Shown here piece after piece: positions 3,000 through 33,554 of a stretch of 64,000 nucleotides of DNA. Made by a program: the position numbers and the translations under genes. The stretch lies in NCBI RefSeq assembly GCF_029626155.1, contig NZ_JARUBL010000001.1:992001-1056000 (forward strand), given 5' to 3'. A model generated the notes under the pieces. It searched no databases and was not told the DNA's origin. It worked only from the letters and a program-made list of their open reading frames with translations. Position 1 is the stretch's first letter. Each line of letters opens with the position of its first letter. This DNA comes from Solwaraspora sp. WMMD1047 (GTDB taxonomy: Bacteria > Actinomycetota > Actinomycetes > Mycobacteriales > Micromonosporaceae).

Positions 3000-6647
<3,648 letters not shown>

Positions 6648-25455: not shown

Positions 25456-26811
25456 GTGCCGTCTGATCGGCCCGGCGGGGGAAAGATGGTAGCCGTGAAC
25501 CCGCAGCGGATCCTTGTCGTAGGCGCCGGCCACGTCGGTTTGTACGCGGCCCTGCGCCTGTCCAAGAAGCTCCGGTCGCGTGAGGCCGAGGTGATCGTCG
25601 TCGATCCCCAGCCGCACATGACGTACCAGCCGTTCCTGCCCGAGGCGGCGGCCGGCAACATCTCCCCCCGGCACTCCGTGGTCCCGCTGCGCCGGGAGCT
25701 GCGCCGCTGCCACATCGTCTCCGGCGCGGTGACCCGGATCGAGCACGCCCGCAAGACCGCCACCGTGCAGCCGATCATCGGACCGCCCCGCGAGATCGGC
25801 TACGACCACATCATCGTGGCGCCCGGTTCGGTGTCCCGGACCCTGCCGATCCCCGGCCTGCGCGAGCAGGGGATCGGGTTCAAGACCATCGGTGAGGCGA
25901 TCTACCTGCGCAACCACGTCCTGGACCGGCTCGACGTGGCGGCGGCCACCAGCGACCCGGAGACCCGGCGGTGCGCGCTCACCTTCGTCTTCGTCGGCGG
26001 CGGTTACGCCGGCATCGAGGCGGTCGCCGAGATGGAGGACATGGCCCGCGACGCGCTGCGCTACTACCCGGAGCTGTCGCCCGAGGACATGCGCTGGGTG
26101 CTGGTCGAGGCCACCCAGCGGGTGCTGCCCGAGGTGGACCGGGACATGGGCGCGTACACGGTCCAGCAGCTGCTCAAGCGCAAGATGGACATCCGGCTGG
26201 ACACCCGGTTGGAGTCCTGCGTCGACGGGCTGGTGGTGCTCTCCGACGGCGACACCTTCCGGGCCGACACGATCGTCTGGACCGCCGGCGTGAAGCCGTC
26301 GCCGATGCTCGACGAGACCGACCTGCCGCGGGACGGCCGTGGCCGGATCACCTGCCTGCCGACCCTCCAGGTGGCCGACGGCGATCGGGTGGTCGAGGGC
26401 GCCTGGAGCGCGGGGGACTGCGCGGCGGTGCCGGACCTGACCGGGCCGCCCGGCGCGTACTGCTCGCCCAGCGCGCAGCACGCGGTGCGGCAGGCCGCCC
26501 GGATGGCGGACAACATCCGGGCGGTGATCCGGGGCCAGGCGCCGGTGGACTACCGGCACAAGCACGCCGGCAGTGTGGCGAGCCTGGGCCTGCACAAGGG
26601 CGTGGCGCAGGTGTACGGCATCAAGCTGACCGGCCTGCCGGCCTGGTTCATGCACCGGACCTACCACATGAGCCGGATCCCGTCGTTCAACCGCAAGGTG
26701 CGGGTGATCGTGGACTGGACGCTCGCCTTCTTCCTCAAGCGCGAGGTGGTGGCGCTCGGCCAGCTGCACGACCCGCGGGAGGAGTTCGTCGAGGCCACCC
26801 CCCGGCTGTAG
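25456..26811 (+). CDS. ndh: Type II NADH dehydrogenase-like flavoprotein
   Basis: A 451-residue FAD/NAD(P) oxidoreductase of the NDH-2 family, which passes electrons from NADH to quinone without pumping protons. The FAD motif is VVGAGHVGLYAALRLSK near residue 20 and the NAD motif VFVGGGYAGIEAVAEMEDMA near 180. TIVWTAGVKPSP and WSAGDCAAVPD are the FAD-contacting C-terminal motifs. The end carries an amphipathic segment (KVRVIVDWTLAFFLKREVV) suited to membrane-surface attachment. GTG 25456 has AGAAGGG 7 nt upstream; GTG 25495 would give a protein starting right at the FAD motif as in some relatives. Confidence 0.9.
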   Translation: MPSDRPGGGKMVAVNPQRILVVGAGHVGLYAALRLSKKLRSREAEVIVVDPQPHMTYQPFLPEAAAGNISPRHSVVPLRRELRRCHIVSGAVTRIEHARKTATVQPIIGPPREIGYDHIIVAPGSVSRTLPIPGLREQGIGFKTIGEAIYLRNHVLDRLDVAAATSDPETRRCALTFVFVGGGYAGIEAVAEMEDMARDALRYYPELSPEDMRWVLVEATQRVLPEVDRDMGAYTVQQLLKRKMDIRLDTRLESCVDGLVVLSDGDTFRADTIVWTAGVKPSPMLDETDLPRDGRGRITCLPTLQVADGDRVVEGAWSAGDCAAVPDLTGPPGAYCSPSAQHAVRQAARMADNIRAVIRGQAPVDYRHKHAGSVASLGLHKGVAQVYGIKLTGLPAWFMHRTYHMSRIPSFNRKVRVIVDWTLAFFLKREVVALGQLHDPREEFVEATPRL

Positions 26812-26833: not shown

Positions 26834-28738
26834 TCAGGGTCGGCCGACCCGCCAGGTCCAGACGTCCGCCGACCGGGTGGCCGGCCCGAACAGCTGTTCC
26901 AGGGCGTCCAGCAGGGCGGCGGCGTTCGGGGCGTCGTCGCCCAGCGCCACGCAGGAGGCGTCCCAGAAGGCGACGTCGCGCTGGGCGGCCTGCCGGGTCC
27001 GGTCGGTGATCGCCGGCAGCCGGCCGGTCTTCGCCACGTCGGCGAGCAGCTTCGAGGTGGGCCGCTTGTAGGTGCCCATCGAGGCCCGGCCGCCGGCCGC
27101 GTACGGGCCGATGAAGAAGCCCTCCGGCAGGCTGAAACCGGCGTCCGCCCCGGTGGCCCAGCGCATCGGCCACGGCTCCTGCGGGGTGGGCAGCGGCACC
27201 GGCACCAGCACGCCGCCCGGCCGCACACAGTCGCGCCAGTGCCCGGCGGTGATGAACTCCGGCAGCGGGGGCCGGTCGGTGGTCGGCAGCGGCTCCGGGA
27301 AGATCGGCAGGAAGGCGGCGACGCAGGCCGCCGGCACCAGGAGTTGGACCGGCCGGCGCACGTCGCGCACCGCCCGGTCGACGGCCAGCGCCAGCACCGT
27401 CGCGATCACCGGGATCAGGGCCAGCGCGAACCGCATCGGCAGCGCGCCGTCCACCACCGGCACCTCCAACAGCATCGAGTACGGGCCGGTCAGCTCGGTC
27501 GGCTCGCGGTTGACCACGATCACCGGCCCGAGCGAGAGGGCGGCCATCGCCAGGCCGGCGGCCACGCAGCCGATCACCAGTGGGCGCCGGATCAGGGCGG
27601 CGGCGCAGACCAGCGTCACGATGATCAACGGCCAGCCGAGGAAGGTGTTGTACTCGGCCGGCCCGGTGGTCAGCGCCTCCCCGGCGGCGGAGCCGGCGAC
27701 CGACAGCGGGGAGAACGCCGGCCAGCTCGCCAGGTCGGCGGAGAAGTAGTGCGGGCTGAACATGCCGTTCGGCACGCTCTGCGGCCCGGCGAACTGGAAC
27801 CACAGCGGGTACGCCAGCGCGACCAGCGCCAGCCCGACGGCGAGCAGCATGCCGGCCAGGAAGCCCGGCAGCACCCGCCAGGTGAACCGGGGCCGGGCCA
27901 CCGCGTACACCACGGCCAGCACGACGAGCGCGACGGCGCTCAGGAAGAGCACCTCCTCGCCGACGAAGACCTGCACCGTGACGGTGAGCGCGATCAGGGC
28001 GCCGTTGCGGGCGATGCCCCGCGGGTCCCGGCGCCCGTCCGGCCGGGCCGCCGGGTCGGCGGCCCGGATCAGCCGGACCACCAACCAGATGATCACCGGA
28101 ACCAGCCACTGGGCGGTCATGTGCAGGTGCGCGTTGGACTGGGAGATCATCCCGGGCGCGAAGCCGCAGAATCCGCCGGCCAGCCCGGCGGCCAGCCGCC
28201 CCAGGCCCAGGGTGTGTCGGTAGAGCCAGTACCAGGCGATCGCGGTTCCGGCCAGGTTGGCGGCGGCGAGCAGCGCGAAGGTGACCGGGGCGCCGGCCAG
28301 CAGGGTCACCGGCGCGAACAGGAAGCCGAGCGCGATGACCGTGGTGTTGGCCATCAGGTTGACCCCGTCCGGGGCGTTGAGTCGGTCGCTGAGCAGGCTG
28401 AAGTCGCCGTACAGCAGCCGGGCGTCCATGGCCAGGAACCACTCGTAGAGGGTCTGGTCGGCCGGGTTCAACGCCAGCACCCGCGCCCCCGGGTCCGGCC
28501 ACAGACCCTGGGTCAGCCAGCCGGCCAGCAGCACGAAGAGCAGGCAGGTACCAAAATCGACGCGGTACGGCCGGAGCGTGGTCACCCATCGCCGCCAGCG
28601 CGGCACCCGGCTGCCCGGTCCGGCGGCTGGACCGGTGGTCTCCCGGACGGTGTCGGCGGGCTGGTCCGGCGCGTCGGTGGGTCCGCTCGCCCGGTCGGCC
28701 GGTTCGGCGTCGGGTTCCACGCGCGCTGTGCTCGTCAC
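26834..28738 (-). CDS. Polytopic GT-C-like membrane protein
   Basis: A 634-residue protein with a disordered N-terminus (1-45), then about 11-12 membrane helices, then a C-terminal extracytoplasmic domain of some 150 residues (from about 480). The first external loop, LNPADQTLYEWFLAMDARLL, with acidic residues after helix 1, and the overall layout resemble GT-C lipid-linked sugar transferases of actinobacteria. Sugar donor and acceptor are unknown. GTG 28738 is chosen; the frame extends 90 nt further with poor coding character. Confidence 0.72.
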   Translation of the reverse strand: MTSTARVEPDAEPADRASGPTDAPDQPADTVRETTGPAAGPGSRVPRWRRWVTTLRPYRVDFGTCLLFVLLAGWLTQGLWPDPGARVLALNPADQTLYEWFLAMDARLLYGDFSLLSDRLNAPDGVNLMANTTVIALGFLFAPVTLLAGAPVTFALLAAANLAGTAIAWYWLYRHTLGLGRLAAGLAGGFCGFAPGMISQSNAHLHMTAQWLVPVIIWLVVRLIRAADPAARPDGRRDPRGIARNGALIALTVTVQVFVGEEVLFLSAVALVVLAVVYAVARPRFTWRVLPGFLAGMLLAVGLALVALAYPLWFQFAGPQSVPNGMFSPHYFSADLASWPAFSPLSVAGSAAGEALTTGPAEYNTFLGWPLIIVTLVCAAALIRRPLVIGCVAAGLAMAALSLGPVIVVNREPTELTGPYSMLLEVPVVDGALPMRFALALIPVIATVLALAVDRAVRDVRRPVQLLVPAACVAAFLPIFPEPLPTTDRPPLPEFITAGHWRDCVRPGGVLVPVPLPTPQEPWPMRWATGADAGFSLPEGFFIGPYAAGGRASMGTYKRPTSKLLADVAKTGRLPAITDRTRQAAQRDVAFWDASCVALGDDAPNAAALLDALEQLFGPATRSADVWTWRVGRP

Positions 28739-28854
28739 GCCGACGACCCTAGTGTCACCGTGGCGGTCGGGTCCGGCCGGTGGCCGAGGCCGGCCTCCGC
28801 CCGCCGTCTCCCGCGTGGCGCAGCTCACAGCCGTACCGCCGCCCGGGTAGCTGC

Positions 28855-29478
28855 TCAGCCCTCCTCGTCAGCTCTTCGCCGCCGGCCGAGGGCGAGTCCG
28901 AGCCCGGCGGCGAACACGGTCGCCGCCGCGATGCCGATCCCCACCTGCCCGGCGCCGGCACCGCCCGACCCCGATTCCGGACCGGACCGGGCTGCCGGTG
29001 CCGGGGCGGGCGCGAGGACCGCGCCGGTGGTGATCAGCGACGGCGCCGGCTCCTCGGCGCCCGGTTCGGTGCCGGTCCACTGGTAGGACCCGCCGCCGTC
29101 ACACCGCTGCTCGGTCGGGAACCACAGGGTCTGCCCGACCACCCCGGAGATCCGCGCGACGAGCGAGAACTCCGCCTCCTCGGCCGCGTCGATCCCCGGC
29201 CCGGACCAGCGCACCCGGCTGGGCGCCACCTCCGCCGACCAGCCGTCGGGCGCGGTGGCGCTGCCTGCGATCACCCCGTCCGCCATCGTGACGGTCAGTT
29301 CGGTGGTCGGCGCGGTCCCGCAGCCGTGGTCGAAGGTGAAGGTCAGGGTGGTGGTGCCGTCGCCGTTCGGTTGCGCCTTGGCGAGCAGGACGTGCGCCGA
29401 GGCCGGCGCGGCCGGCCAGAGCCCGGTCAGGATCGCGACGACGAGCAGCAGCGCCGGAAGCGCGGTCCGGACTCTCAT
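28855..29478 (-). CDS. YcnI-like (DUF1775) copper-binding membrane-anchored protein, second copy
   Basis: A 207-residue exported protein. The signal peptide ends PAAPASA, so the mature protein should begin at His29 (HVLLAKAQ), the position that binds copper in the YcnI mono-histidine brace. The DUF1775 beta domain follows, with one disulfide-like Cys pair (HGCGTA, EQRCDG) and the conserved Trp in YQWTG. After a Pro/Ala/Gly linker a C-terminal helix (about 177-197) and RRRR anchor it in the membrane. The ATG overlaps the CopCD stop. The core is more divergent than the first copy upstream. Confidence 0.8.
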   Translation of the reverse strand: MRVRTALPALLLVVAILTGLWPAAPASAHVLLAKAQPNGDGTTTLTFTFDHGCGTAPTTELTVTMADGVIAGSATAPDGWSAEVAPSRVRWSGPGIDAAEEAEFSLVARISGVVGQTLWFPTEQRCDGGGSYQWTGTEPGAEEPAPSLITTGAVLAPAPAPAARSGPESGSGGAGAGQVGIGIAAATVFAAGLGLALGRRRRADEEG

Positions 29479-31154
29479 CGGATCACCACCGGAATCTCGA
29501 CGATCGGGTTCTCGAACTTGCTGGTCCGCACGCTCACCGTCAGCACCCACTCGCCGGCCAGCGGGAAGTCGGCCACCGCCTCGTACCGACCCGGTGCGAT
29601 CACGGCGAGCGGCCGGTCCAGCGGGCCGATGTCGTACTCCGGTTGGGTGGCGGTGACCTTCGGCGGTTCGACCGGTTCGACCGGGCGGCCGGCCGCGTCG
29701 AGGACCGACAGCTCCAGGGAGTTGATGCCGACCGCGCCGGGGGTGATCCGGGCGGTGACCCGGCCGGTGCCGAGCGCGGCCTCCAACACCACCGCCTCCG
29801 GCCCGGCGGGCGCGGCCGCGGCGGTGGACTCCTTGATCGGACTCTGGGTCACCAGCAATCCGGTGGCGGCGAGCACGCCCACCAGCAGCAGTGCCTCCGC
29901 CCGGACGGTCCGGCGCAGCCCGGTGCGGGCCGCGGCGTCGTCGGGCCGGCCGGCGACCCGGGGCACCAGCCGGAACCGGTTCCAGCCCGCCACCGCGAGC
30001 ACGACGAGCACCAGCCCCGTCTTGGCCAGCAGGGTCCACCCGTACCCGGTGTCGAACAGGGCCGACCAGGAGCGCAGGATCCGCCACCCGAGCAGCACCC
30101 CGGCGACCCCGAGCAGGCCCACCAGCAGCGCCGCGAGCCGGGAGAAGGCGCCCACCGTCCGGGCGGCGGCGGGCGCCGCGACGTCCGCGCCGCGGGACAG
30201 TGTGACGGCCAGCCCGAGTATCCCGCCGAGCCAGACCGCCGCGGTGGCCAGGTGCAGCAGGTCCACGCCGACCACCAGCCAGGCCGGGCCGAAGGTACGG
30301 GTGTGCCCGACCAGGGCCAGCGCGCCCAACGCCAGCGCGGCCCCGCCGAACGCGACGGCGGTCAGCGCCGGCCGGTGCCGTGACCGGCCCGCATACCAGC
30401 CCGCGGTCAGCGTCACCGCCAGGCCGGCGAGGGCCAGCAGTGAGCTCAGGGCGGGATCGGAGCGCAGGCCGGTCGCCCAGGTCTCCCCGTCGAACACGGC
30501 GGCCAGGTCGCTGCCGTCCTGCCAGGCGACGGTGACCGGGATCAGCAGGAGCAGGGCGAGCGCGGCGGCGGCGCCGAGGCCACCGGCGATCCGGTCCCGA
30601 CGGACCCGGGCGGACCGGCCAACCGGGGCGAGCGTCAGACCGAAGATCATCAAGCCGGTGCCGCCCAGCACCCCCAGGTAGGCGACCGTCTCGGTGACCG
30701 GGCGCAGCACCCGCAGTCCGGACCCCGGCTCGGTCTCCGGAATCGCGACCGTGCCGGCGCTGGGGGCGCCGACCGAGAAGCTGAACCCGCCCGCGACCGG
30801 GTGACTGTCGGCGGAGACCACCCGCCAGCTCACCAGGTACGTGCCGTCGGCCAGGTTGTCGGGCGGGGTCAGCACCACCGTGCTGTCGACCGCCCTGGCT
30901 TCCGCGTCGAGCTCCGTCCCGCTCGCGTCGAGCAGCCGGACCCCGCCGTCGCGTACCTCGACGGCCTCGTTGAAGTACAGCGTCACCGTCTCCGGGGTCG
31001 CCGGCAGCACCGCGCCGTCGGCCGGGTCGGTGCGCAGCAGGGTGGCGTGCGCGGCGGCGGGGGCCGCGCCGAGCAGGCTCAGCGCGGCCCCCACCAACCC
31101 GGCGAGCAGGGCGGTGCCGAGGCGCCGGGCCCGCCGGGTCGCGAATTGTCGCAT
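29475..31154 (-). CDS. CopC-CopD copper protein with C-terminal YtkA/FixH-like domain
   Basis: A 559-residue fusion. The signal peptide ends APAAA; the mature CopC domain (36-133) begins with His36 (HATLLRTDPADGAVL) and contains SADSHPVAGGFSFSVG, both part of the CopC Cu(II) site. Eight membrane helices of CopD follow (about 160-440), with histidines in LVGHTRTFGP and VDLLHLATAAVWLGG. The last 100 residues form a beta-rich YtkA/FixH-like domain outside the membrane. CopCD proteins import or deliver copper. The gene lies between two YcnI genes, with 2 nt and 4-nt-overlap spacing, so all three are one transcript. Confidence 0.92.
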   Translation of the reverse strand: MRQFATRRARRLGTALLAGLVGAALSLLGAAPAAAHATLLRTDPADGAVLPATPETVTLYFNEAVEVRDGGVRLLDASGTELDAEARAVDSTVVLTPPDNLADGTYLVSWRVVSADSHPVAGGFSFSVGAPSAGTVAIPETEPGSGLRVLRPVTETVAYLGVLGGTGLMIFGLTLAPVGRSARVRRDRIAGGLGAAAALALLLLIPVTVAWQDGSDLAAVFDGETWATGLRSDPALSSLLALAGLAVTLTAGWYAGRSRHRPALTAVAFGGAALALGALALVGHTRTFGPAWLVVGVDLLHLATAAVWLGGILGLAVTLSRGADVAAPAAARTVGAFSRLAALLVGLLGVAGVLLGWRILRSWSALFDTGYGWTLLAKTGLVLVVLAVAGWNRFRLVPRVAGRPDDAAARTGLRRTVRAEALLLVGVLAATGLLVTQSPIKESTAAAAPAGPEAVVLEAALGTGRVTARITPGAVGINSLELSVLDAAGRPVEPVEPPKVTATQPEYDIGPLDRPLAVIAPGRYEAVADFPLAGEWVLTVSVRTSKFENPIVEIPVVIR

Positions 31155-31156
31155 TC

Positions 31157-31891
31157 CTAGGCGGTCTTGCGGGTGCGGATGAACGCCAGGCCGCCCAGCA
31201 CGAAGCCGAGGGCGCCGAGCACCAGCCCGGTCCAGCCGGCCGCCGATCCGGCCGCACCCGGGTCGTCGGTGCTCGACTCCTGCGCGACCCGCTCCGGAGC
31301 GGCCTCGACGTCGGCCTCGGCCGCGGCGCCACCGTGCCCGTCCCCGGCGGCCTCGGTGACCACGAACGTCGGCGCGGGCGCCTCCAACTCGTCGCGGTCC
31401 TGACCGGCCGCCGGCAGCTGCACCCAGGCGGTCTCGCCCTGCTCGCAGGTCTGCACGGACGGGAAGGCCAACGTCTCGCCCGGCGTCTCCGGCAACTTCA
31501 GCGACAGCTCGAACGCGTCGCGGTGGCCCTCCGGCAGCGGGGTCTTCGCGGTGTAGACGATCTCCGACACCCGCTCGGTCAGCTCGTTGCCGTGGCTGTC
31601 CTTCACCGGTGGGTCCAGCGGGGCCTTCACCTTCTCGACGGTCCAGCCCTGGTTGATGGTGGGGGTCACGGAGTTGATCTGCTCCGGGATCTGGATGGCG
31701 ACCTTCGTGGTGCCCGAGCCGTCGCACCCGTGCGGCACCGAGAAGGTCAGCACCGTGTACGCCCCGGCGGCGGTGACCGTCGGGGTGACGGTCACGTGGG
31801 CGCCCGCCGGCAGCGCGGCGAGGGCGACCAGACCCCCGGCGGCGCCCGTCACGACACCGGCGCGGAGCACATTGCGGAGGGTGGTGTTCAT
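31157..31891 (-). CDS. YcnI (DUF1775) copper-binding protein, first copy
   Basis: A 244-residue exported protein with signal peptide ending LPAGA, predicted mature N-terminus His32 (HVTVTPTVTAAG), and a DUF1775 domain carrying IPEQINSVTPTINQGWTVEK and CEQGETAWVQLP; His1, an acidic residue and Trp form the copper site in characterised YcnI. A disordered Ala/Glu-rich stalk and a C-terminal helix (about 217-237) ending in IRTRKTA anchor it. It is the first gene of the YcnI-CopCD-YcnI operon, divergent from an ECF sigma factor. Confidence 0.92.
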   Translation of the reverse strand: MNTTLRNVLRAGVVTGAAGGLVALAALPAGAHVTVTPTVTAAGAYTVLTFSVPHGCDGSGTTKVAIQIPEQINSVTPTINQGWTVEKVKAPLDPPVKDSHGNELTERVSEIVYTAKTPLPEGHRDAFELSLKLPETPGETLAFPSVQTCEQGETAWVQLPAAGQDRDELEAPAPTFVVTEAAGDGHGGAAAEADVEAAPERVAQESSTDDPGAAGSAAGWTGLVLGALGFVLGGLAFIRTRKTA

Positions 31892-32011
31892 TCGATCGGT
31901 GCCTTTCGTCAGGATGCGCAGGCATCAGGCATGCACGGGCGTCAGGGACGCGCGGGACAACAGTGAGCGGGCCGGTTGGATGGTCGGGCCGGGTCATCGA
32001 TCAGTTCCCGT

Positions 32012-32028
32012 GAAGTTCCGGGAACTTC
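32012..32028. promoter_or_regulatory. 17-nt palindrome between the copper operon and the ECF sigma gene
   Basis: GAAGTTCC (32012-32019) and GGAACTTC (32021-32028) are exact inverted arms around a single G. The site is 71 nt before the sigma-factor GTG and 121 nt before the ycnI ATG. It may be an operator for both genes; GGGAAC inside it also resembles -35 elements used by some ECF factors, so self-regulation is possible. Both readings are inference. Confidence 0.45.
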
Positions 32029-32098
32029 GCGGCCCCGGGCACCGACCAACCTGGGTGTCGGTGCAGCGCGTCAGTCAGTTCACACAGCGGGGTGCCCG

Positions 32099-32662
32099 GT
32101 GACCGGCCCGGATGACCGGGTCACCCGGTTGGCGCTGGCCGCCGGGCAGGGCGACCGGGAGGCGGCGGCGGCGTTCGTCCGCCTCACCCAGTACCAGGTC
32201 TGGCGGTTCGTGGCCCACCTGGCCGGGCCGGCGGAGGCCGACGACCTGTGTCAGGAGACCTTCCTGCGGGCGCTGCGCAGCCTGCCGGGCTTCGCCGGCC
32301 GGTCGTCGGCGCGGACCTGGCTGTTCACCATCGCCCGCCGGGTCGCGGTCGACCACGTCCGGGCCGCGATGACCCGGCCCCGGACCACCGTCGTGGAGTC
32401 CTGGGAACTCGTCGACTCCGCCGACGGCCCCCGGTTCGAGGAGGAGTCGGCGCTGCGTGGGCTCCTGGACGACCTGGCACCGGACCGGCGGGAGGCGTTC
32501 GTCGCCACCCAGGTCCTCGGCCTGTCGTACGCGGAGGCCGCCGCCGTCTGCGACTGCCCGGTCGGCACCATCCGGTCCCGGGTGGCCCGCGCCCGGGAGG
32601 ACCTGGCGGCCGCGATCGACCCACGCGAGCACCGCCGCCCGACGGCCCGGGCGGGTGCATGA
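32099..32662 (+). CDS. ECF-type RNA polymerase sigma factor
   Basis: A 187-residue sigma-70 family protein with only regions 2 and 4. Region 2 contains AGPAEADDLCQETFLRALRS and RTWLFTIARRVAVDHVRA; region 4 contains LGLSYAEAAAVCDCPVGTIR followed by SRVARAREDL. No anti-sigma gene or C-terminal extension is visible. It faces the copper operon across 207 bp, so control of copper genes is a plausible inference and recalls SigC of mycobacteria. I start at GTG 32099; the frame is open further upstream through the palindrome but without sigma-like residues. Confidence 0.92.
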   Translation: MTGPDDRVTRLALAAGQGDREAAAAFVRLTQYQVWRFVAHLAGPAEADDLCQETFLRALRSLPGFAGRSSARTWLFTIARRVAVDHVRAAMTRPRTTVVESWELVDSADGPRFEEESALRGLLDDLAPDRREAFVATQVLGLSYAEAAAVCDCPVGTIRSRVARAREDLAAAIDPREHRRPTARAGA

Positions 32663-32669
32663 TGGGGTG

Positions 32670-33554
32670 ATGCGTCTGGTGTCGCTGCTGCCGTCCGCGA
32701 CGGAGATCGTCTACGCCCTGGGGCTCGGCGACGACCTCGTCGGGGTGACCTTCGAGTGCGACGAGCCGCCGCAGGCCCGGGCCGACAAGACGGTGGTGGT
32801 CGGCGGCCGGGACACCCGGGGGATGAGCCCGGCCGAGATCGACGACTACGTCAAGTCCCGGCTGGCGGCCGGGGAGGACCTCTACACCCTGCACGCCGGG
32901 GCGATGTCCGAGCTGGCGCCGGAGCTGATCCTGACCCAGGACCTGTGCCGGGTCTGCGCGCTGCCGTCCGACCACGTCTCCGACGCGCTCGACCACCTCG
33001 GCTGCCGGTCCGACGTGCTCTCGCTCGATCCGTACACGTTGGACGAGGTGCTCGACACCATCGTCGAGGTGGGGGCGCGTACCGGCGTACCCGATCGGGC
33101 GGCGGCGCTGGTCGGCGGTCTGCGGGACCGGTTGTCGGCGGTGGCGGCGGCGGTCCGGGGCCGGCCCCGGCCCCGGGTGGCGGTCGTCGAGTGGGTCGAT
33201 CCGCCGTTCACGGCCGGGCACTGGGTGCCGGACCTGGTCCGGGCGGCCGGCGGCGAGCCGGTGGCCGGCCGGCCGGGCGCCCGGTCGGTGCAGACCACCT
33301 GGCAGGAGTTCCACGACGCGGCGCCGGAGGTGATCATCGTCTCGCCGTGCGGGTTCCACCTCGACGGGGCGGTCCGGCAGGCCGAGACGGTCGCACCCCG
33401 GTTCCCGGGGGTGCCGGTCTGGGCGATCGACGCCGACGGCCTGGTGGTCCGCCCCGGCCCCCGCCTGGTCGACGGGGTCGAGGCGATGGCGGCGATCCTG
33501 CACCCGGACGCGGTCGCCACCCCGGCCGGCCCGGTGATCGCCCGGGTGGCCTGA
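32670..33554 (+). CDS. BtuF-like cobalamin-binding protein without signal peptide
   Basis: A 294-residue periplasmic-binding-fold protein (Peripla_BP_2). RLVSLLPSATEIVYALGLGD and the segment TQDLCRVCALP are typical of cobalamin/metal-chelate binding proteins related to BtuF. There is no signal peptide or lipobox: the protein starts straight into the domain, so it should be cytoplasmic, unlike transport BtuF. It starts 7 nt after the sigma gene and lies immediately upstream of a cobalamin riboswitch, which supports a B12 connection. The ligand is unproven. Confidence 0.8.
   Translation: MRLVSLLPSATEIVYALGLGDDLVGVTFECDEPPQARADKTVVVGGRDTRGMSPAEIDDYVKSRLAAGEDLYTLHAGAMSELAPELILTQDLCRVCALPSDHVSDALDHLGCRSDVLSLDPYTLDEVLDTIVEVGARTGVPDRAAALVGGLRDRLSAVAAAVRGRPRPRVAVVEWVDPPFTAGHWVPDLVRAAGGEPVAGRPGARSVQTTWQEFHDAAPEVIIVSPCGFHLDGAVRQAETVAPRFPGVPVWAIDADGLVVRPGPRLVDGVEAMAAILHPDAVATPAGPVIARVA

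Follow-up and report, generated by a model that had tools for sequence, protein, structure and literature searches.

A probable copper-acquisition operon with two YcnI proteins, beside a SigC-type sigma factor gene, in Solwaraspora

Locus organization

The window analyzed here is a 64,000-nucleotide stretch of the 8.16 Mb genome (~73% G+C, Micromonosporaceae) of Solwaraspora sp. WMMD1047, covering positions 992,001 to 1,056,000 of contig NZ_JARUBL010000001.1. Our subject is a trio of minus-strand genes that encode, in order, YcnI-1, a CopC-CopD-YtkA fusion (CopCD) and YcnI-2, together with a divergent gene for a SigC-type extracytoplasmic function (ECF) sigma factor. YcnI-1 and CopCD are 2 nt apart, and the CopCD stop overlaps the YcnI-2 start. 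All positions below are those of the window.

31157–31891, minus strand: YcnI-1 (DUF1775), 244 amino acids; signal peptide 1–31; His32 codon at 31796–31798
31178–31237, minus strand: YcnI-1 C-terminal hydrophobic anchor, residues 219–238, predicted by reading the sequence
29475–31154, minus strand: CopC-CopD-YtkA fusion of YcnJ architecture, 559 amino acids; signal peptide 1–35; His36 codon at 31047–31049
28855–29478, minus strand: YcnI-2, a divergent DUF1775 protein, 207 amino acids; signal peptide 1–28; His29 codon at 29392–29394
28885–28950, minus strand: YcnI-2 C-terminal hydrophobic anchor, residues 177–198, followed by an Arg-rich tail, also predicted by reading the sequence
29475–29478, minus strand: 4-nt start/stop overlap (ATGA) of CopCD and YcnI-2, retained in 10 of the 11 trio loci examined
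31981–32009, minus strand: sigma-C-type element GGGAAC-N17-CGACCA directed toward the trio, an exact match; its GGAAC starts 117 bp before the ycnI-1 ATG
32020–32048, plus strand: sigma-C-type element GGGAAC-N17-CGACCA directed toward the sigC-like gene, an exact match, divergent to the trio element
32099–32662, plus strand: SigC-type ECF sigma factor gene with a GTG start, divergent from the trio

A first-pass annotation, made from the letters of the DNA, had described a tightly coupled copper operon in which YcnI domains flank CopCD, and the gene order, the spacing and the Pfam DUF1775, CopC and CopD domains all bear this description out. In one trio locus (L047 ~5964–6030, genome G104) a 20-bp tandem repeat multiplies the CopCD/YcnI-2 overlap several times, and coupling there would shift with repeat copy number.

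Domains and N-terminal histidines

Both YcnI copies belong to the DUF1775 family (Pfam PF07987, cut-off 25 bits): YcnI-1 scores 160.6 bits (4.2e-47) and YcnI-2 62.7 bits (6.4e-17), and all 20 YcnI-2 orthologues match the profile. The AlphaFold2 (AF2) model of YcnI-1, with a predicted local distance difference test score (pLDDT) of 90.6, finds 3esm and Bacillus subtilis YcnI (BsYcnI) as its top matches in the PDB. The YcnI-2 model (pLDDT 94.2) lies nearest to a Nocardia DUF1775 structure and BsYcnI, with template modeling (TM) scores of 0.69–0.78 to 3esm, 7me6 and 8um6. The fusion protein between them has the three YcnJ domains in YcnJ order: CopC (4e-24) and CopD (3e-23) are both over their cut-offs, and YtkA (3e-5, 24.9–25.1 bits) is just below its cut-off of 25.9 bits but is matched at E ≤ 0.01 by 12 of the 13 members of the CopCD orthologue alignment. 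The CopC ligands His1, Asp81 and His83 and the GH(T)R...D..H residues of CopD are invariant in these 13 orthologues.

The predicted cleavage contexts are PAGA/H32 in YcnI-1, PAAA/H36 in CopCD and PASA/H29 in YcnI-2. In orthologous trio loci Ala directly precedes the His in 34/34 YcnI-1, 34/34 CopCD and 35/35 YcnI-2 sequences, and all but one of them also have Ala at position −3; these counts take in three duplicated genomes and one record that is probably contaminated. The solved mature chains of CopC and YcnI start at this His, which is present in 10,393 of 10,647 DUF1775 sequences (PMC8424229), so that its more-than-chance occurrence in three products is a trait of both families and not an additional coincidence. 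By the A-x-A rule and homology to the solved chains, cleavage is predicted before His32, His36 and His29, and each of the three products most likely starts with a copper-gripping His once mature. The first-pass annotation had reported the Ala-His junctions in three successive exported proteins and had named YcnI-2 orthologues without the His as grounds for abandoning the idea; the sequence and the orthologues confirm the junctions, and the His is kept in every YcnI-2. The window genome has six DUF1775 genes (C1 0.50, 1.02 (two), 1.71, 4.09 and 7.37 Mb), and in the one at 4.09 Mb Asp replaces the His after the signal peptide (ADVTV).

The sigma-C-type element

The sigma-C consensus of Corynebacterium glutamicum is GGGAACT at −35 and CGACTA at −10 (PMC5483222), and the region shared by the trio and the sigC-like gene contains two divergent copies of the form GGGAAC / CGAC(C/T)A, one upstream of each. 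This regulatory region had escaped the first-pass annotation. The sigC-like product scores 192 bits against NCBIfam NF007231 (cut-off 219) and 204 bits against NF009187, with the next ECF family at 90 bits. Each of the Micromonosporaceae trio loci (15/15, from 12 distinct genomes) has the element with a 17-bp spacer 78–117 bp ahead of ycnI-1, and none of the trio upstream regions has it at any other spacer from 13 to 21 bp. A SigC homologue (E ≤ 7e-44) is present in 10/10 other Micromonosporaceae trio genomes tested. The element is absent from 16/16 upstream regions of single YcnI-1/CopCD loci in the same family and from 19/19 trio loci outside it, and seven sampled Promicromonosporaceae and Cellulomonadaceae trio genomes gave no SigC match better than 4e-16. 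The element-free trio loci are L094, L096–L110, L113, L114 and L116 (Promicromonosporaceae, Oerskovia), and several Promicromonosporaceae/Oerskovia loci have an additional CopC-like gene ~1 kb upstream.

Of 14 SigC homologues found across the phylum, the window's included, 5 have a DUF1775 or CopCD gene no more than 1.5 kb away, with the element situated between the two genes or ahead of them. In the window genome the element is also upstream of seven further copper-related or sigC-linked genes or operons: a second CopCD-YcnI operon, another YcnI, a PepSY_TM gene, a DJ-1-like gene, a CopC gene, a PCuAC-DyP-CopC operon and a zf-HC2 gene beside a second sigC. By a rough post hoc count, which is only indicative, the element lies within 200 bp of 5 of the 10 operons with CopC, CopD, DUF1775 or PCuAC, against 0.0007 expected per operon. 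Even in relaxed form it is absent before five other copper loci (C1 2.46, 3.39, 4.09, 5.54 and 7.37 Mb).

Copper sites of the YcnI domains

In BsYcnI, Cu(II) is held by the amine and imidazole of His1 and by Glu50 (mature residue 24), with Trp137 nearby as a copper-cushioning residue (PMC8424229). His1 and the Trp are present in both window copies, each of which has His23-Gly24-Cys25 in place of the Ser-Glu-Lys of BsYcnI.

31724–31732, minus strand: YcnI-1 His54-Gly55-Cys56 (mature 23–25); HGC in 34/34 YcnI-1 orthologues
29320–29328, minus strand: YcnI-2 His51-Gly52-Cys53 (mature 23–25); HGC in 34/35 orthologues and HSC in one
31424–31426, minus strand: YcnI-1 Trp156, equivalent to BsYcnI Trp137; invariant in both YcnI-1 alignments
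29077–29079, minus strand: YcnI-2 Trp134, equivalent to BsYcnI Trp137; invariant in both YcnI-2 alignments

With Gly at mature position 24 and no Glu, neither copy has the monohistidine brace of BsYcnI. Both copies also have a second invariant Cys close to the Trp, and in 20 YcnI-2 sequences His1, His23, Cys25, both Trp residues and the second Cys are all invariant. A DSHGNE-containing loop is present in YcnI-1 and absent from YcnI-2. Glu-less DUF1775 proteins have been recorded, and another ligand set was proposed for them (PMC8424229); a profile search found no solved structure of the HGC type. These residues point to an altered Cu(II) site in both copies, in which His23 may serve as the substitute ligand, and Cys25 and the second Cys may form a disulfide.

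Lineage of YcnI-2

YcnI-2 is 25–30% identical to YcnI-1, and in a tree all 31 YcnI-2 sequences form a single clade (Shimodaira–Hasegawa-like approximate likelihood ratio test, SH-aLRT, 99) apart from YcnI-1, which rules out a recent duplication of YcnI-1. True YcnI-2 (E < 1e-38) is found in 11 of 151 Micromonosporaceae genomes and YcnI-1 lies ~2.4 kb away in all 11. Among 84,980 named species genomes, 25 YcnI-2 loci were detected, and 23 of these are complete trios in the same gene order. One of the remaining two (L095) is clipped by a contig end and the other (L117) is a weak match in a Bifidobacterium breve metagenome-assembled genome (MAG) that bears an actinomycete-like DUF1775 and is probably contaminated or misbinned; L108, a Sphaerisporangium cinnabarinum record, is close to Cellulosimicrobium loci and is probably likewise contaminated or misbinned. 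The 23 complete named loci span two orders. Hosts of YcnI-2 are Micromonosporaceae, Promicromonosporaceae, Cellulomonadaceae (Oerskovia) and one Nocardioidaceae MAG, and many loci have YcnI-1 and CopCD but lack YcnI-2. The divergence of the second YcnI that the first-pass annotation had noted is therefore upheld by the identity and the separate clade, and the co-occurrence of paired copies around CopCD, which it had put forward as a check, holds in 11/11 genomes and 23/23 complete named loci. Its suggestion of another partner is not supported, since no intact YcnI-2 locus was found outside the trio in these genomes. In other Actinomycetota, farther relatives on the YcnI-2 side occur singly downstream of CopCD (placement support 88%, long branches), which suggests that the trio brings together two old lineages, one from ahead of CopCD and the other from behind it.

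Discussion

We consider the locus to be a copper-acquisition operon of the YcnJ-YcnI kind with a second YcnI, under the control of a SigC-type ECF sigma factor, and put the probability of this reading at roughly 0.7. Because a sigma-C-type element and a divergent SigC-like gene adjoin the trio, import under copper starvation is its most likely role. The sigma-C regulon of C. glutamicum is activated by copper deprivation (PMC7337898), and SigC of Mycobacterium tuberculosis, an ECF36 sigma factor (PMC8999054), serves copper acquisition (PMC7924339). In B. subtilis, YcnI-YcnJ supports the import of copper, with Cu(II) exchanged between YcnI and CopC (PMC12154828, PMC13344008), and the counterpart gene set aids growth when copper is limited (PMC13344008).

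From these parallels the operon would work as follows. Copper shortage would activate sigma-C, encoded divergently and probably autoregulated, and sigma-C would transcribe the genes for YcnI-1, CopC-CopD-YtkA and YcnI-2 from GGGAAC-N17-CGACCA; the trio of Solwaraspora sp. WMMD1047 is in this sense predicted to be sigma-C dependent. The three outer-face His1 domains would catch Cu(II), with the two tail-anchored YcnI domains acting as Cu(II) stores or as exchange partners for CopC. CopC would load the CopD importer, CopD would bring copper in, and the YtkA domain may help to supply cytochrome oxidase or oxidase assembly. Copper binding and the direction of transfer are both inferred here from sequence.

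The trio resembles B. subtilis ycnKJI in its CopC-CopD-YtkA importer, its tail-anchored DUF1775 partner and its N-terminal His ligands. It differs in having two DUF1775 proteins around the importer, both Glu-less with His23-Gly-Cys25, and in that no YcnK-type repressor gene is recognized beside it, the SigC-like gene and the element being found instead. With the sigma-C systems of C. glutamicum and M. tuberculosis it shares the GGGAAC / CGAC(C/T)A element and, probably, a SigC-type sigma factor and the context of copper or respiratory starvation. A verified sigma-C target of C. glutamicum encodes an iron-regulated membrane protein (PMC5483222), and the PepSY-type membrane gene and PCuAC-DyP-CopC operon of the window genome likewise bear the element. 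Unlike in those species, the element-bearing genes here include YcnI/CopCD operons, and some SigC homologues face a divergent zf-HC2 membrane gene. As in the mostly proteobacterial Glu-less DUF1775 proteins (PMC8424229), His1 and Trp are retained and Glu is missing, whereas the trio lies in Actinomycetota, and in its YcnI proteins mature position 23 is invariably His and a Cys pair is present.

Several observations weigh against this interpretation. The sigC-like product, at 192 bits, is under the NCBI equivalog cut-off. The element is absent from trio loci outside Micromonosporaceae, so that not every trio would be under sigma-C control, and the correlated presence and absence of element and SigC amounts to few evolutionary events. 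Genome-wide the element occurs at 61 sites compared with 38 for a reversed control, which indicates that many sites are due to chance. The B. subtilis YcnI His27Ala mutant has only a small defect (PMC12154828), and since the window copies have a His at 23 and no Glu at 24, the copper site of BsYcnI is not directly transferable.

As to what YcnI-2 does, our best guesses are a separate task, either as a second exchange partner of CopC or in delivery to the YtkA or oxidase side. The latter version, in which YcnI-1 serves CopC and YcnI-2 passes copper on to the YtkA domain or the CuA assembly of cytochrome c oxidase, is possible but doubtful. Translational coupling ties YcnI-2 to the YtkA end of CopCD, YcnI-2 lacks the YcnI-1 loop, its distant relatives occur singly downstream of CopCD, and in B. 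subtilis YtkA has a link to CuA assembly (PMC13344008); gene position is nevertheless weak evidence. A copper-resistance operon, whose His1 proteins would bind surplus copper outside the membrane in response to copper stress, is improbable: CopC and CopD carry copper resistance protein names and high-affinity binding at the outer face could also protect, but the element fits a consensus tied to copper and respiratory starvation in Corynebacterium and Mycobacterium (PMC5483222, PMC7337898, PMC7924339), the sigC-like gene adjoins the trio and B. subtilis grows on limited copper with the help of the counterpart set (PMC13344008). Less probable still is a redundant or decaying YcnI-1 duplicate without a role of its own, for despite its lower Pfam score and its low identity to YcnI-1, YcnI-2 forms a strongly supported clade, was found in no intact locus other than the trio and keeps the invariant residues that a decaying copy would lose.

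The first-pass annotation had suggested a relay passing copper between His1 sites. This is plausible, as the YcnI-CopC step is published for B. subtilis, but for the same reason it is not new; the annotation was also incomplete in missing the Glu-less His-Gly-Cys type of both YcnI copies. What is new is the pairing of YcnI proteins together with their altered site and the link to sigma-C, and a limited search of the literature, itself weak evidence, found neither two DUF1775 genes around CopCD nor SigC control of YcnI/CopCD. A more speculative picture, which we advance only tentatively, is an actinomycete three-station Cu(II) relay with two ancient, non-interchangeable YcnI lineages flanking the CopC-CopD-YtkA importer, each bearing a new His1/His23 bis-histidine-like site and a nearby Cys pair, one loading CopC and the other taking copper from CopC or delivering it to the YtkA end, with SigC as the switch in Micromonosporaceae.

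Little is understood of how bacteria import copper, and studies of YcnI concern one Bacillus protein. The trio offers a conserved, naturally occurring variant that has two YcnI lineages and differs in its predicted copper site, and it ties YcnI/CopCD importers to SigC, whose mycobacterial copper-acquisition targets are only partly known. The element makes the copper-starvation regulon readable in further actinomycete genomes.

Neighboring and related genes

Three neighbors were rejected as members of the unit because they are not beside the trio in relatives: a BtuF-like gene (32670–33554), an FAD oxidoreductase gene (25489–26811) and a membrane protein gene (26834–28741). Elsewhere in the genome, at C1 ~500.6–503.8 kb (L019 4115–7250), genes for an exported DJ-1/PfpI-like protein, a Glu-type YcnI and a PepSY_TM protein each have their own sigma-C-type element. 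No anti-sigma factor is known for SigC in M. tuberculosis (PMC7924339). In the window genome a zf-HC2 membrane protein gene (PF13490; L179 5522–6460, minus strand), with the element in front, is divergent to the second sigC (C1:7192047–7192589), and its product is a candidate anti-sigma factor for SigC. Genes that appear zf-HC2-like by eye, again with the element in front and candidates for the same role, are also divergent to SigC homologues in L055, L142 and L145.

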